This document shows, one piece after another, positions 3,677 to 40,000 of a stretch of 40,000 nt of DNA (the first letter of the stretch is position 1; every line of letters begins with the position of its first letter). Where the stretch lies: the NCBI GenBank assembly GCA_016867715.1, contig VGIW01000021.1:1-40000 (forward strand). Direction: 5' to 3'. The position numbers were made by a program, and so were the translations under genes. The notes beneath the pieces are model-generated. The model did not search any database, was not told the origin of the DNA, and saw only the letters and a list, made by a program, of their open reading frames with translations. The stretch is from Candidatus Eisenbacteria bacterium (GTDB lineage Bacteria; Orphanbacterota; Orphanbacteria; Orphanbacterales; Orphanbacteraceae).

Positions 3677-5245
3677 ATGAAACGCAGGGCGATCGCGGCG
3701 GCGCTCCTTCTCTTGGCGGGGGCGAGCGCCGGAGAGGCCCAGATTGTCTTTGTCTTCGAGACCGTTCTTCAGAAAGGGGACGTGATCCCCGGGGTCGGCG
3801 CGGTGACCACCATCGACAACCTCGCGGTGAACGATCACGGCGCCTGGCTCGTCGAGGCGGACACGGACCACTCGAACACCAACGCGGACGCGGTGATCAT
3901 CCAAAACGGCGCGCTCTACCTTCGCGAGGATCAGCCCCTTCCGCGGCCCCCGGGATCGAGGCTCGACACGTTCGACTCGGTCCGCCTGAACAACCACGGG
4001 CACAGCGGCTGGAACTTCTTCCTCTCGGGGACGAGCGGAAGCCTCGACGACTCCGGGATCTATTACGACACGACGCTCGTCATCCAGGAGAGCGACATCT
4101 CGACCGCGCCCGGGTTCACTCCGGGAACCCCGTACATCGGGTTCTTCGAGACGCACATCAACGACGCGCGCGAGATTCTCATCGTGGCGAGCGTCGACGA
4201 CCCTGCGATCGCGACGAGCGTGGACCGCGCGCTCGTGATCGCGATGGTCGATTCGGTCGGGGACCTTCTCTCCGAGACGCTCCTCGCGATGGAGGGTGAC
4301 ACGCTTCCGGGCCAAAGCGAGGGGATCACCGACTTCGGAACCGGCCCCCACGAGAGCGCGTTCAACGATAGCGGAGACGTGCTCTTCTTCGCAGACCTCA
4401 CGGGAGCGACGACGACCGACGGCGTGATCTATCGGAACCTCACGCTCCTCGCGCAAGAAGGAAGCCCGTCCCCGCTTCCGGGACGGAACTACGAGACCCT
4501 CTCCTCGCGCGGGCTCGACCTGAACAATCAGGGTGGATACGTCTTCAAGGCGAACCTCGACGGGAGCACCGCGGACGATGAGGCGATCGTGAAGAACAAC
4601 ACGATCCTCGCCCGCGAGGGCGGAACGATGCCGGGCATCGCGCCGTACCTGCTCACGTCGTTCGGAACCGGGAGCGGCCCCGTGCAAATCGGCGACAACG
4701 GAAAGGTCGTCTGGTTCGGCGATTGGGACGATCCGAACACGAACATCGACACCGGGCTCTTCCTGGACAGCGTGCTGATCGTTCAGGAAGGGGTGACGAT
4801 GGTCGGGGACGATCTCATCGACGAGATCGCGAGCGGGCAGGACGCGTTCGACCTCTCGTCGAGCGGCCGGTGGCTCCTCTTCGAGGTGACCTTCACGAAC
4901 GGGAACAACGCGGCGGTTCTTCTCGACCTCACCGATCCGACCTCGGTGACGGAAGCGTCCGACCTCGTGTCTCCGGCAGTCCTCCAGGCGGCGCCGAACC
5001 CCTTCGCGAGCGGGACGACGATCCGCTTCGGTCTCACGGAACGGGAAACCGTGAGCCTTCGCGTGTACGATGTCCGCGGAAGGCTCGTCTCGGTTCTCGC
5101 GGACGGCGCGTTTTCGGCAGGCGAGCATGTCGTCTCCTGGAACGGGCGGGACGATCGGGGGCGGACCGCGTCGGCGGGCACCTACTTCGTCCGACTCCGG
5201 ACCGCGGACGAGAGCCGCTCGTTCCGGCTCGTGCGCGTGCGGTAG
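3677..5245 (+). CDS. Secreted repeat protein with C-terminal FlgD-like sorting domain
   Basis: A 522-residue exported protein. MKRRAIAAALLLLAGASAGEAQ is a Sec signal peptide; the ATG at 3677 follows AAGGAGG by six bases, so a further-upstream in-frame ATG at 3626 was rejected. Residues 25 to about 430 hold roughly six degenerate repeats of about 60 residues. Their pattern is 'N-D-G-x-V-x-F-x-A... L-A-x-E-G-x-x-x-P-G', clear in LTLLAQEGSPSPLPG and NTILAREGGTMPG, and it suggests a beta-propeller-like surface module. The last 80 residues (NPFASGTTIRFGL, VYDVRGRLV, SWNGRDDRGR, ASAGTYFVRL) form a FlgD Ig-like domain of the kind used as a C-terminal sorting or anchoring domain in FCB-type bacteria. 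The gene is transcribed against its neighbours and splits trmD from rplS. Its function is unknown. Confidence 0.85.
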   Translation: MKRRAIAAALLLLAGASAGEAQIVFVFETVLQKGDVIPGVGAVTTIDNLAVNDHGAWLVEADTDHSNTNADAVIIQNGALYLREDQPLPRPPGSRLDTFDSVRLNNHGHSGWNFFLSGTSGSLDDSGIYYDTTLVIQESDISTAPGFTPGTPYIGFFETHINDAREILIVASVDDPAIATSVDRALVIAMVDSVGDLLSETLLAMEGDTLPGQSEGITDFGTGPHESAFNDSGDVLFFADLTGATTTDGVIYRNLTLLAQEGSPSPLPGRNYETLSSRGLDLNNQGGYVFKANLDGSTADDEAIVKNNTILAREGGTMPGIAPYLLTSFGTGSGPVQIGDNGKVVWFGDWDDPNTNIDTGLFLDSVLIVQEGVTMVGDDLIDEIASGQDAFDLSSSGRWLLFEVTFTNGNNAAVLLDLTDPTSVTEASDLVSPAVLQAAPNPFASGTTIRFGLTERETVSLRVYDVRGRLVSVLADGAFSAGEHVVSWNGRDDRGRTASAGTYFVRLRTADESRSFRLVRVR

Positions 5246-5263
5246 GCGGAGACCGCGCCACTC

Positions 5264-5299
5264 CGAACGGCCGTCTTCCGCGAGGAGGGCGGCCGTTCG
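5264..5299. terminator. Bidirectional hairpin terminator
   Basis: CGAACGGCCG (5264-5273) and CGGCCGTTCG (5290-5299) form a perfect 10-bp stem between the convergent ends of the secreted-protein gene and trmD. There is no long T-run on either side, so its strength is uncertain. Confidence 0.6.
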
Positions 5300-5345
5300 T
5301 TCGTGGGGCTCTCCGGCGCCGAAACTGCGGCGCCGTAACTCTGCC

Positions 5346-6026
5346 TTACTTCTCCAGGAGATCCGGCCTTCTGCGGCGGGTGATCTCGAGAGCGCGGTCT
5401 CTTCGCCACGCGGCGATCTTCGCGTGGTCGCCGGAGAGAAGAACGTCCGGAACCTTCATGCCTCGATATTCAGGAGGCTTGGTGTAGTCGGGCGCGCCGA
5501 GAAGCCCGTTCGCGAAGGAGTCGGCGTCGGCGGAATCCTCGTTCCCGAGAACGCCCGGGACGAGGCGAATCGCGGCGTCCATGAGCGCGAGCGCAGGGAT
5601 CTCGCCCCCGGACAACACGAAATCGCCGATCGAGAGCTCAATGTCGACGAGCGCCTCGCGGAAACGCTCGTCCACGCCGCGGTAGCGCCCAGAGACGAGG
5701 ATCCACGCCTCCCCGGAGGCGATCTCCCGCACGCGCTCCTGCCGGAGCGGCTCCCCCTTCGGCGTGAGGAGAATGACCGGCACGCGGCTTCCTTCCGTCT
5801 CGCGCACCCACTCGACCGCTCGGAAGAGAGGCTCGGGCTTCATCACCATTCCCGGGCCCCCGCCGTAGGGGGTGTCGTCGGTCGTCTGATGTCGGTCCTC
5901 GGCGAAGTCGCGGAGGTTCACCGGGACGATCTCCGCCTTCCCCGCCGCGAGCGCCTTTCCGGTCACCCCCTCGGCGAGCGGCCCCGGGAAGAGGCCGGGG
6001 AAGATCGTGACGACGTAGAAGCGCAT
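5346..6026 (-). CDS. trmD: tRNA (guanine-37-N1)-methyltransferase
   Basis: At 226 residues this is a typical TrmD of the SPOUT (knotted) class. It methylates G37 next to the anticodon and prevents +1 frameshifting. Motifs in order: DDTPYGGGPGMVMKPEP near residue 50, LLTPKGEPL, SGRYRGVDERF, then the knot signature LSIGDFVLSGGEIPAL, and PDYTKPPEYRGMKVPDVLLS in the C-terminal domain. The ATG at 6026 has AAAGGA upstream. It lies 13 bp after rimM, the usual order, but is not followed by rplS. Confidence 0.96.
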   Translation of the reverse strand: MRFYVVTIFPGLFPGPLAEGVTGKALAAGKAEIVPVNLRDFAEDRHQTTDDTPYGGGPGMVMKPEPLFRAVEWVRETEGSRVPVILLTPKGEPLRQERVREIASGEAWILVSGRYRGVDERFREALVDIELSIGDFVLSGGEIPALALMDAAIRLVPGVLGNEDSADADSFANGLLGAPDYTKPPEYRGMKVPDVLLSGDHAKIAAWRRDRALEITRRRRPDLLEK

Positions 6027-6039
6027 CGATTTCCTTTGT

Positions 6040-6567
6040 CTATGGACGATTGATCTCCAAAAGACCGGCAGGAGGATCGACGATCATCCGGCCGCTTTCG
6101 AGATCGATCAAGACGACGATGCCGGGCGCCGCGGGGATGAGATGCTCTTCCTCCGCGCCCCGCACGCGGTAGAGATCCCCCGCCGGATACTCGAGGACCT
6201 CCTCGATCGTGCCGATCGCGCGTCCTTCCCTCGTCCAGACGGCGAGACCGACGAGCTCCTCGCGGAAAGGCCCCTTCGCGCCGGCCGCCTCGAGATCCCT
6301 GCGGTCAGCCCACGCCTCCGCCCCGCGGAGCCCCTCGGCCTCGGTCCGGTCGTCGATCCCTTCAAGCTTCAAGAGAAACACATCGCCGTGCGGGCGGACC
6401 GACTCGACGAGAAACGCGCGGATTTCCTCCTCCTCGTCGGCGAGAAAGACACGCCGGAGAGCGGGGAGGGCCGGATCGAGCAGGCGCGAGACCTTGAGGC
6501 GGACCTCGCCCCCGAGCCCGTGGACCCGTCCGATCGTCCCGAGATGAATGCGCGCCGCCTTGGGCAT
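6040..6567 (-). CDS. rimM: Ribosome maturation factor for the 30S subunit
   Basis: A 175-residue protein that binds S19 and helps mature the head of the small subunit. The N-terminal barrel begins IHLGTIGRVHGLGGEVRLK (residues 7-25) and includes DRTEAEGLRGAEAW. The C-terminal PRC-barrel carries IGTIEEVLEYPAGDLYRV and HLIPAAPGIVVLID, both standard. It sits 19 bp after khpA and 13 bp before trmD, the canonical order rpsP-khpA-rimM-trmD. Confidence 0.95.
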   Translation of the reverse strand: MPKAARIHLGTIGRVHGLGGEVRLKVSRLLDPALPALRRVFLADEEEEIRAFLVESVRPHGDVFLLKLEGIDDRTEAEGLRGAEAWADRRDLEAAGAKGPFREELVGLAVWTREGRAIGTIEEVLEYPAGDLYRVRGAEEEHLIPAAPGIVVLIDLESGRMIVDPPAGLLEINRP

Positions 6568-6586
6568 GGAGGACCCGCCGTCCCGG

Positions 6587-6817
6587 CTACTCGACGATCT
6601 CGAGGATCGCCTTCCGCCCCTCCTTCGCCGAGAGCACGCCGAGGAGAGAGCGGATCGAGCGGGCGGTGCGGCCGTTCTTTCCGATCACCTTGCCGAGGTC
6701 CTCCTTTGCGACGCGGAGCTGGAAGACCGTCGTGTCGTCCCTTCGCGTCTCCTCGACGCGGACTTGGTCCGGGCTTTCGACGAGGAGGCGCGCGATGTAC
6801 TCGATCAGATCCTTCAT
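6587..6817 (-). CDS. khpA: KH-domain RNA-binding protein KhpA
   Basis: A 76-residue protein made of a single KH domain. The nucleic-acid-binding GxxG loop is seen in KVIGKNGRTARSIRSLL (GKNG). The start region MKDLIEYIARLLVESPDQV matches the family. KhpA is a small RNA chaperone that in several bacteria pairs with KhpB to influence division and RNA stability. The ATG overlaps the rpsP stop by four bases (ATGA), so translation is coupled. Confidence 0.93.
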   Translation of the reverse strand: MKDLIEYIARLLVESPDQVRVEETRRDDTTVFQLRVAKEDLGKVIGKNGRTARSIRSLLGVLSAKEGRKAILEIVE

Positions 6818-36889: not shown

Positions 36890-36900
36890 AGGATGAATTC

Positions 36901-37015
36901 CCGGCGGCGTCCTACTCTTCCGCAAAGTTACCGAAGCAGTACCATCGGCGCTGGAGGGCTTAACTACCGTGTTCGGAATGGGAACGGGTGTGACCCCTCC
37001 GCTATTGCCGCCGAG
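36901..37015 (-). rRNA. rrf: 5S ribosomal RNA
   Basis: This is 115 nt on the minus strand. CTCGGCGGC at the 5' end pairs with GCCGCCGGG at the 3' end to form helix I (nine pairs, one G.U). Inside are the universal segments CACACCCGTTCCCATTCCGA, ACACGGTAGTTAAGCCCTCC and GGTACTGC, in the order expected of bacterial 5S. The spacer to 23S is about 75 nt and contains no tRNA. Confidence 0.95.
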
Positions 37016-37224
37016 AAATTCTTTCAAAGATCAACCGATAGCGATCGATGATAAGGCGCCTTCTCCCGAAGGATACAGTTCGATAATTTAAGGATCAAGC
37101 CTCACGGCCGATTAGTACCAGTCGGCTGAACGACTTACATCGCTTACACCTCTGGCCTATCAACCTCGTAGTCTACGAGGGGCCTTTAGGTACCTTACGG
37201 TACGGGATATCTCATCTTGGGGTG

Positions 37225-37257
<33 letters not shown>

Positions 37258-37374
37258 CTTCCGAACATAGCTACCCAGCTATGCCGCTGGCGCGACAACT
37301 GGTGCACTAGAGGTTCGTCCAACAGGGTCCTCTCGTACTGGAGTCAGCTCCCCTCAGATATCCTGCGCCCACGA

Positions 37375-37406
<32 letters not shown>

Positions 37407-37446
37407 AAACCCAGCTCGCGTACCGCTTTAATTGGCGAACAGCCAA

Positions 37447-37574
<128 letters not shown>

Positions 37575-38008
37575 CGGCCCTTCCATACGGAACCGCCGGA
37601 TCACTAAGTCCTGGTTTCCCACCTGTTCGACTTGTAGGTCTCGCAGTCAAGCTCCCTTATGCCTTTACACTCGACGCGCGATTGCCGACCGCGCTGAGGG
37701 AACCTTTGAGCGCCTCCGTTACATTTTGGGAGGCGACCGCCCCAGTCAAACCGCCCGCCTGACAATGTCCCTGCGCCGGATAACGGCGCGAGGTTAGGAT
37801 TTCAACCAAGCAAGGGTGGTATTTCAAGGTTGGCTCCACCGAGACTAGCGTCCCGGTTTCAACGCCTCCCACCTATCCTACACATGATTAGCCAAAACCC
37901 AATGCCAGGGTACAGTAAAGGTGCACGGGGTCTTTCCGTCCTGTCGCGGGTAGACGGTATCTTCACCGCCACTGCAATTTCACCGAGTCCCTTGTTGAGA
38001 CAGCGCCC

Positions 38009-38041
<33 letters not shown>

Positions 38042-38736
38042 CACGTTTATCCACGGTTTCCCGTGGCGCAGACTATACCTTCACCTGGTTGTCAGGGAGT
38101 TGAGAATCTCCCTACCGGAATACTTCCGCTTGCCGGAGGAGTTCATTCGCATCGCCAGATCGACGATCACTTCGAATCCTTCTCGTGTCTTGTGTTTCTT
38201 CTCATGGATGAGAAGGCACACTCGCTCGAAGCACCGAACGTCGTCCTGCTTGCGGGACAACAACGGGAACATCCGAAAACGCGGCAGCACTTTGTCCACC
38301 AAGTCACGAATGTTCCGAACTTCGAACTTGAGAGTACGATCCGAACGATCCGGCCGAATGAAGCCGCATTCCCATCTTTGCTGAATGACATAGAGGAGTT
38401 CCGCTCGATCGCCGTTCTGGCTGATCGAGAAGCTTGGTCTCACTTCCCAGCCGAGCCTGTGTCTCAAGCTCGGTTGGAAGGAAACGCAGAAGCATCCTTC
38501 TCCATCTACGAATCCAGAAATGTAGGAATCGACATCCATCGTACAAGAACCAGGGCCGGCGTGTTATGGAGCCCGAACGCCCCATCCAGGCTTCTCACAC
38601 CTGAGTCGTTACGGGGATCACCACCGGTGATCTTACCCTCGGTATTGCCCGCGGCACCCTGCTGTGCCGGGAGGGTTCTACCGATTTGAGCCGGTTTTCT
38701 CGAGCAGGATCGCTCCTGCTTCGGGCAATGCTACTT
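38042..38736 (-). mobile_element. Group I intron at 23S position 1951, with endonuclease gene
   Basis: A 695-nt insertion between TCGGGT and AAGTTCC of 23S. It fits group I rules. The 5' exon ends in U, and the guide sequence GCCCGA (complement of 38721-38726) pairs with UCGGGU, leaving U.G at the splice site. The last intron base is G. The P7 3' strand AAGGTATAGTC (38071-38081) can pair with GACT in AACGACTCAGG about 530 nt upstream. The endonuclease frame occupies the P8-side loop between the two P7 strands. Site L1951 is a known intron site in bacterial and organellar 23S (for example Coxiella). Confidence 0.9.
38081..38539 (-). CDS. LAGLIDADG homing endonuclease of the L1951 intron
   Basis: A 152-residue protein on the same strand as the rRNA. 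A single LAGLIDADG motif occurs near the start, YISGFVDGEGCFCVSF (residues 6-21), with Glu at the catalytic acidic position. SFSISQNGDRAELLYVIQQR, then KFEVRNIRDLVDKVLPRFRM, and KHKTREGFEVIVDLAMRM fit the LAGLIDADG_1 fold. One motif per chain implies action as a homodimer, as in I-CreI. The expected target is the intron-free 23S sequence around position 1951. The stop codon TGA overlaps the P7 strand of the intron. Start ATG 38539 has no obvious ribosome-binding site, as is usual for intron genes. Confidence 0.93.
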   Translation of the reverse strand: MDVDSYISGFVDGEGCFCVSFQPSLRHRLGWEVRPSFSISQNGDRAELLYVIQQRWECGFIRPDRSDRTLKFEVRNIRDLVDKVLPRFRMFPLLSRKQDDVRCFERVCLLIHEKKHKTREGFEVIVDLAMRMNSSGKRKYSGREILNSLTTR

Positions 38737-38756
38737 ACCCGACAAGGAATTTCGCT

Positions 38757-39382
38757 CGGTCACTCCTCTCCGTTTCTGAAGAGGCCGGACTTTATCTTGA
38801 CGATCCACGATTCATCTGCGCGGCGATTCGCCGGATCTCCTCGATCCCTTTCGCCGTCAGGTGATCCCCATCCGCCATCCTGAGCAGGATTCGGCGGAAC
38901 TTCATGAAGTCCACCCGTTTCCTGGTCTTGAGCGGATGCCTTTCGAAGAACGGGATCACACGCTCCACGAGATGCGTTCGGCTTCTAACGCGAAAGGCCA
39001 TTCGGTCTCCGTGGTTCGTGCGAACCACGCCACAACCGAAAAACGCCTTGAGCGCGTGAAGAACCTGCACATCGCGCTTGTGTTGGACCACGGTGAATTC
39101 GGGAAGAACTTGGAAGCCCGCCGTCATCTCCGGATGGCGATTGACGGCGACGTGAAAGCATCCTTCCCCGTCCACGAAGCCCACGATCCACTGAGCATCT
39201 AGATTCATCGGAACCGTCCCGAACGTGAAGTCTCTGAGGGTTCCCTGAACATCAGGGCCTTCCCTGCGGATTGTCCCCATGTCCGTCGGATTGTGACTGC
39301 CGGCTTGCTGCCGGCGAGTACCGAGCGGCTGTCGAGGAGTTTCCCGCATATGGTTCGGTTTTACTAAGGCTCGCGAAAGTCA
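38757..39382 (-). mobile_element. Group I intron at 23S position 1931, with endonuclease gene
   Basis: A 626-nt insertion between CCTAAGGT and AGCGAAATTCC of 23S. The guide sequence GCCTTAG (complement of 39364-39370) pairs over seven positions with CUAAGGU of the 5' exon, placing the required U.G at the splice site, and the last base is G. Core elements visible are GCGGGAAACTCC (P4 region), TCAGAGACTTCACG (P7 5' strand) and AAGATAAAGTCC (P7 3' strand), with GACTT/AAGTC pairing. The endonuclease gene lies between the P7 strands. L1931 is a known intron site, for example in Thermotoga and Simkania, and lies within the I-CeuI recognition region. Confidence 0.92.
38792..39208 (-). CDS. LAGLIDADG homing endonuclease of the L1931 intron
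   Basis: A 138-residue protein. The single motif is WIVGFVDGEGCFHVAV (residues 7-22). It is followed by EFTVVQHKRDVQVLHALKAF, FRVRSRTHLVERVIPFFERH and RILLRMADGDHLTAKGIEEI, matching LAGLIDADG_1 and aligning over its length with the endonuclease of the neighbouring intron. One motif per chain suggests a homodimer. ATG 39208 (MNLDAQ) is preferred because the frame further upstream, open to 39349, runs through conserved intron-core sequence. The stop TAA lies inside AAGATAAAGTCC of P7. It probably cuts intronless 23S genes at the 1931 site. Confidence 0.93.
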   Translation of the reverse strand: MNLDAQWIVGFVDGEGCFHVAVNRHPEMTAGFQVLPEFTVVQHKRDVQVLHALKAFFGCGVVRTNHGDRMAFRVRSRTHLVERVIPFFERHPLKTRKRVDFMKFRRILLRMADGDHLTAKGIEEIRRIAAQMNRGSSR

Positions 39383-39417
<35 letters not shown>

Positions 39418-40000
39418 TGGGGCTTCGATTCAGAGCTTCGCCTTGCGGCTAACCCCTCCTCTTAACCTTCCAGCACCGGGCAGGTGTCAGCCCCTATACG
39501 TCGTCTGTACGACTTGGCAGAGACCTGTGTTTTTAGTAAACAGTCGCCCAGGCCGTTTCACTGCGACCCCAGCCAGCTTTGCGGAGCAAGTCCGCTGACC
39601 AGCCGAGGCACTCCTTCTCCCGAAGTTACGGAGTCATTTTGCCTAGTTCCTTAACAAGGGTTCTCTCGAGCACCTGAGGATACTCTCCTCACCCACCTGT
39701 GTCGGTTTCCGGTACGGTCGACAACATTGCTCCCTTAGAGGTTTTTCTCGGCAGTCAGCTTACGACCAGTTTGTGTCCCTAAGGGACTCCCCATCACCTC
39801 TCGGAGTTGCCCTCCCGGATTTTCCTAGGAGGACCTCCTACGGGCTTAGACCGGGACATCCGACACCCGGCTGGCCTTCACTCCTGCGTCACCCCATCGG
39901 TCGAACGCTCTGTCATCGGTACGGGGATCTTAACCCGTTTCCCATCGCCTACGCCTTTCGGCCTCGGCTTAGGGGCCGACTTCCCCTGAGCGGATTAACC

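Follow-up and report, generated by a model that had tools for sequence, protein, structure and literature searches.

The 23S rRNA gene on the minus strand of the window (the whole stretch of DNA analysed here, 40,000 nucleotides long and from a bacterium of the Candidatus Eisenbacteria group) is interrupted twice around a very short exon. Its covariance alignment to RF02541 spans 37091-40000 and is continuous but for two large inserts, and a 5S gene lies downstream at 36899-37015. Taking E. coli U1939, within the conserved GCGAAAUUCC, as the reference for counting, we place the breaks after U1931 and U1951. An earlier note on this DNA had claimed group I introns of 626 and 695 nt at L1931 and L1951, with a 20-nt exon between them. 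The alignment breaks exactly at the coordinates and sites that it named, and alignment and sequence together bear out the three sizes. In the order of transcription, the parts of the gene are:

39383..40000, minus strand: the 23S 5' exon as far as the window holds it, ending in ...CCTAAGGT at U1931 (39383); from the RF02541 alignment and the sequence
38757..39382, minus strand: intron 1, a group I intron at L1931, 626 nt, beginning TGACTTT and ending ...GACCG; from RF00028 and the empty site in the relative G001 (locus L121)
38737..38756, minus strand: the middle exon, AGCGAAATTCCTTGTCGGGT, 20 nt, E. coli 1932-1951; from the sequence and the RF02541 alignment
38042..38736, minus strand: intron 2, a group I intron at L1951, 695 nt, beginning AAGTAGC and ending ...AAACGTG
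37091..38041, minus strand: the 23S 3' exon, beginning AAGTTCCGACC; from RF02541

At both introns the 5' splice site follows a U, and the last intron nucleotide is a G. AAGT starts intron 2 and also the exon that follows it, which allows the junction to be drawn at more than one position; L1951 was chosen because the U at the 5' site, the terminal G and the P1 pairing select it. The assembly holds a single 23S match, although in 172 contigs the 23S copy number could be collapsed. Thus, as far as the assembly shows, all ribosomes of this bacterium need both introns removed.

A close relative provides the uninterrupted form of the gene. The host family is represented here by seven genomes, and in one of them, G001 from the same genus as the window, both L1931 and L1951 are empty and the three pieces of exon are connected just as the predicted borders require. 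Over the 951 positions of the 3' exon the two genes show 3 differences, the 49 upstream positions that could be compared show none, and the exon stretches adjoining the introns are identical. The intron borders are confirmed by this gene because its exons are exactly joined at both sites. Within the same family, G002 carries the L1931 intron alone, and G003 and G005 carry neither.

The ribozymes were located from the following elements:

39373..39378, minus strand: TTTCGC of intron 1, which forms a 6-bp P10 with GCGAAA, nt 2-7 of the middle exon; from the duplex energy and a P10 survey
39364..39370, minus strand: GCCTTAG, the guide sequence of intron 1, for a 7-bp P1 with CTAAGGT of the exon, including the splice-site U.G pair
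38721..38726, minus strand: GCCCGA, the guide sequence of intron 2, for a 6-bp P1 with TCGGGT, which occupies nt 15-20 of the middle exon
38554..38695, minus strand: catalytic core of intron 2 from P3 to P3', comprising P4, P5, P6, the 5' strand of P7, P7.1 and P7.2; model R1, 75.8 bits, E 2.8e-20
38069..38074, minus strand: the 3' side of P7 in intron 2, AGTCTG within ...GAAGGTATAGTCTGCG; of the five base pairs of this helix, four are formed in each of the 14 sequences

Intron 1 has the conserved catalytic core of a group I intron. It matches RF00028 over the full length of the model (1-253) at 49.8 bits and E 1.3e-10, just under the gathering score of 50. Its guide and exon (CUAAGGU with GCCUUAG) form a P1 duplex of -8.6 kcal/mol, with the U.G pair at the 5' splice site and pair probabilities of 0.96-1.00 in the precursor, and the 6-bp P10 duplex has -7.6 kcal/mol; the intron ends in G.

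Intron 2 is harder to recognise, and the same RF00028 search gave no match to it even at E 10. The Rfam check proposed in the earlier note therefore succeeds for intron 1 and misses intron 2, which is found by a site-specific model. We aligned 14 L1951 introns, that of the window and others from loci with the same twin arrangement, after removing the endonuclease genes. Helices P1, P2, P3, P4, P5, P6, P7, P7.1, P7.2, P8 and P9 all pair in the window's intron; P3, P4 and P6 are paired in all 14 introns, and P3, P4, P5 and P8 show compensatory changes. Across the whole structure the alignment holds 117 double-change cells, whereas shuffling gives 50 on average and none of 500 shuffles reaches this value; the structure was drawn from the window's row, so that paired percentages lean towards the window, and the shuffles ignore relatedness. 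A stronger test is R1, a covariance model built from the 13 other L1951 introns with the window excluded. R1 finds the core given above, with a roughly calibrated E-value, and matches nothing else in the 40-kb window. The call of intron 2 rests on this model, on the helix and covariation counts and on the empty site in G001.

The P1 of intron 2 (UCGGGU with GCCCGA) has a duplex energy of -9.6 kcal/mol and pair probabilities of 0.85-1.00 in the full precursor; like that of intron 1 it carries a U.G pair, and with the core from P3 to P8 and the terminal G it completes the group I anatomy. The U at the 5' splice site, the matching guide and the terminal G that the earlier note had ascribed to each intron are thus all present in the sequence and its P1 duplexes. 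The P7.1 and P7.2 of intron 2 would fit a group IA-like subgroup. Almost no P10 pairing is found in this intron or in its nearest relatives. Among L1951 introns, a P10 strand of 5-6 nt (AACTT or GAACTT) occurs in L019, L030, L059, L060, L042 and L102 and is almost absent in the window, L118, L076 and L021, suggesting two subtypes at this site.

Both inserts are real group I introns at L1931 and L1951, with cores found by RF00028 (intron 1) and R1 (intron 2); the E-values of 1.3e-10 and, for the window-free model, 2.8e-20 exclude chance. Surveys made with RF00028 may undercount L1951 introns, as the model missed one that 13 sequences from the same site detect at E 2.8e-20. These cores also bear on another kind of 23S insert, the ordinary intervening sequence, which is cut by RNase III without religation and leaves the rRNA fragmented. 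Such sequences do occur in bacterial 23S genes (PMC11270868), but the window's inserts combine group I cores with guide pairings, a terminal G, LAGLIDADG genes and known group I sites, and a cut without joining would break the subunit interface in the sole 23S copy found. An intervening sequence should lack a ribozyme core and both inserts have one; we reject this identity for the pair as extremely improbable.

Each intron also holds its own homing endonuclease gene, as the earlier note had claimed:

38792..39208, minus strand: LAGLIDADG gene of intron 1, 138 aa from the ATG of MNLDAQ; PF00961 E 5.7e-24, PDB 5gkk E 2.7e-53
38081..38539, minus strand: LAGLIDADG gene of intron 2, 152 aa; PF00961 E 1.2e-18 and PDB matches; in the P8 loop, overlapping the 3' strand of P8

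Both are single-motif LAGLIDADG genes (LAGLIDADG_1, PF00961) with GFVDGEG as the motif, intact and with its acidic catalytic residue. The open frame of intron 1 reaches upstream to 39349. Its likely start is Met 48 of the frame, because the match to 5gkk begins there and covers the whole 138-aa protein. PDB 5gkk, itself a putative homing endonuclease but from another organism than the window's putative enzyme, is the closest solved relative of the L1931 protein. The 3' ends of both genes enter the ribozyme core, and in intron 1 the stop codon falls within the conserved J8/7 sequence; overlaps of this type between reading frame and core have been published for cyanobacterial introns (PMC1995217). 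Compared with the enzyme of another Eisenbacteria L1931 intron (L096), the L1931 protein is 80% identical, with pN 0.13 and pS 0.78, which indicates purifying selection on the gene. The relatives of the intron 2 enzyme are too divergent, or frameshifted (L118), for a useful rate comparison.

We are highly confident that the locus holds two group I introns, mobile and independent of each other, that belong to known site-specific families and were acquired separately; each would be self-splicing and homing. Judging from the sequence, both introns would splice, encode active endonucleases and home as follows. Each ribozyme would pair its own guide with the exon just upstream and cut after the U.G pair using a bound guanosine. 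The exons would then be joined, and the mature rRNA would regain CCTAAGGT-AGCGAAATTCCTTGTCGGGT-AAGTTCC. At the DNA level, each LAGLIDADG endonuclease would cut an intron-less 23S gene at its own site, and repair would copy the intron in.

Could two ribozymes so close together disturb each other? The earlier note had raised interference over the shared 20 nt, a claim that our models weaken. The two ribozymes appear to use different parts of the middle exon: its 20 nt are uncontested because the P10 of intron 1 takes nt 2-7 and the P1 of intron 2 takes nt 15-20. The guides barely recognise each other's site, the crossed pairings being worth -2.2 and -3.4 kcal/mol against -8.6 and -9.6 for their own. 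In a partition-function fold of the 1541-nt precursor the two P1 helices coexist, with pair probabilities of about 0.96 or more and 0.85 for the outermost pair of the second P1; as such a fold leaves tertiary structure out, it is a weak guide to kinetics. Interference is therefore not supported in silico, and the fold would predict that the introns can splice in either order. It would take the form of exon skipping, with U1931 joined to A1952, or of a fixed splicing order that affects ribosome yield. RT-PCR is reported to show skipping in Coxiella, at its 34-nt exon, and in phage Twort, at an exon of 23 nt (PMC10136302), and the P10 strand of intron 1 has a second possible partner at the beginning of exon 3 (-5.6 kcal/mol); nothing in the present analysis predicts it strongly, and many lineages carry the L1931+L1951 pair. 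On balance we think interference improbable.

Closely packed introns in this region have precedents. Three introns, L1917, L1931 and L2593, interrupt the 23S gene of Synechococcus sp. C9, and all of them contain a LAGLIDADG gene (Haugen et al. 2007, PMC1995217). The window resembles it in having several group I introns in one 23S gene, single-motif LAGLIDADG genes and an intron at L1931, but the partner of L1931 is L1917 in C9, at a spacing of 14 nt, and L1951 in the window. In Coxiella burnetii, as described in papers that cite the original work (PMC10136302, PMC11270868), introns at L1917 and L1951 surround a 34-nt exon; this confirms the parallel drawn in the earlier note. Coxiella resembles the window in having two group I introns of different subgroups around a short exon and an L1951 intron with a LAGLIDADG gene. 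The exons differ in length, and the title of a cited work describes one Coxiella element without a terminal G, whereas both introns of the window end in G and both have endonuclease genes. For CPR bacteria, PMC11270868 describes 23S genes that often hold several group I insertions each, at positions that include 1917, 1931 and 1952, and an endonuclease, I-ShaI (site group 23IS7), a dimer-forming enzyme whose cleavage of its target was demonstrated. The window shares these sites and the LAGLIDADG_1 family but belongs to another host lineage, and the text consulted does not draw attention to pairs at 1931 and 1951.

How common, then, is the pair? We scanned GTDB species genomes for the last G of the L1931 intron followed by the exact exon and obtained at least 117 loci. 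Among the 117 listed, 23 (about 20%) also have an insert at L1951, two of them cut by a contig or record end. These loci belong to Chloroflexota, Planctomycetota, Omnitrophota, Actinomycetota, Pseudomonadota, Nitrospirota and several CPR lineages, hence to at least six phyla outside CPR as well as to CPR, and at least 10 of the pair loci among the matches listed have an endonuclease motif in both introns. The twin loci L102, L060, L084, L105 and L118, for example, have the same two sites and the same 20-nt exon in other hosts; among twin loci some endonuclease genes are degenerate or absent, and some have a third intron at L1917. In L108 (Peregrinibacteria) an 864-nt insert occupies the L1951 position, in which we found no LAGLIDADG motif and recognised no group I 3' core. 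In an across-bacteria sample of 386 genomes, 5 had L1931 introns and 2 had L1951 introns, the host's own family supplying two of the former and one of the latter.

About 17 of the 117 listed loci also appear to have an insert at L1917, which leaves an exon of 14 nt. At least four (L031, L059, L063 and L105) are full L1917+L1931+L1951 triplets with middle exons of 14 and 20 nt, an arrangement of which we found no description in the cited literature on bacterial 23S introns. The triplet inserts measure 796, 632 and 765 nt in L059 and 309, 624 and 732 nt in L105. The latter locus (4250-6733, the 3' part of the 23S gene in a gammaproteobacterial MAG) spends 2484 nt on 867 model positions, and therefore has further inserts downstream of the triplet.

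The origin of the pair can be approached through the enzymes. The window's two endonucleases are 34% identical to each other, and a tree of 79 endonucleases has a branch, with moderate support (82), that separates the L1951 enzymes from the rest. Grouping by site and this low identity rule out local duplication of one intron into two; the pair would instead have arisen by separate gain of an L1931 and an L1951 intron. The L1931 enzymes of twins are scattered among those of single introns (11 changes for 14 twin rows in the tree). Therefore, with enzymes grouped by site, pairs were assembled many times.

That both introns are present in the window and absent from the near-identical G001 would fit a joint transfer, two gains or a precise double loss in G001. 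A joint transfer would mean that the twin arrived as one unit: lying 20 bp apart, both introns would be co-converted when one double-strand break at either site is repaired from a twin donor. The two introns may then act as one mobile unit that either endonuclease co-converts, gained in one event after the split from G001. We put forward both ideas tentatively and doubt them somewhat. In their favour, the congeneric gene lacks both introns at 3 differences in 951 nt with identical adjoining exon stretches, and the family relative G002 has L1931 alone, but a precise double loss in G001 is equally possible. Moreover, the window's enzymes are nearest to those of different loci, the L1931 enzyme to L096, a single-intron relative, and the L1951 enzyme to L118, whose L1931 intron has no endonuclease gene, and the scatter of twin L1931 enzymes among singles also argues against arrival as a unit. 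In L118 the L1951 endonuclease is frameshifted, a state that, with the lack of an endonuclease gene in the neighbouring intron, looks like decay after fixation.

Joint arrival would also be favoured by co-occurrence of the two sites. Among 396 Anaerolineae genomes, L1931 introns occur in 25 and L1951 introns in 19, with both in 13 and one alone in 12 and 6, respectively; the intact sequence was found in 79 of 376 genomes. The plain table gives a Fisher p of 2e-5 without the two genomes chosen as centres; it joins slightly different draws (396 and 376 genomes), and its intact pattern is exact, so that variant or missing 23S genes are uncounted. In phylogenetically independent pairs on the Anaerolineae 23S tree, a comparison of low power, no association was seen (about 1.9 pairs in agreement and 1.5 in opposition, p near 1). 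We accordingly dropped a direct association of L1931 and L1951; the excess can be accounted for equally well by linkage and by lineages that carry many introns.

The earlier note had called a pair with so short an exon unusual. With 23 of the 117 listed L1931 loci having it and an even shorter exon of 14 nt in Synechococcus C9, this does not hold: the L1931+L1951 arrangement recurs in many unrelated bacteria, and the window adds to a known kind of system. It also extends the range of hosts with closely packed rRNA introns by one bacterial phylum, with a natural control in the near-identical intron-less G001. Splicing around rRNA exons of 14 and 20 nt is thus a recurrent task for bacteria and no freak case.
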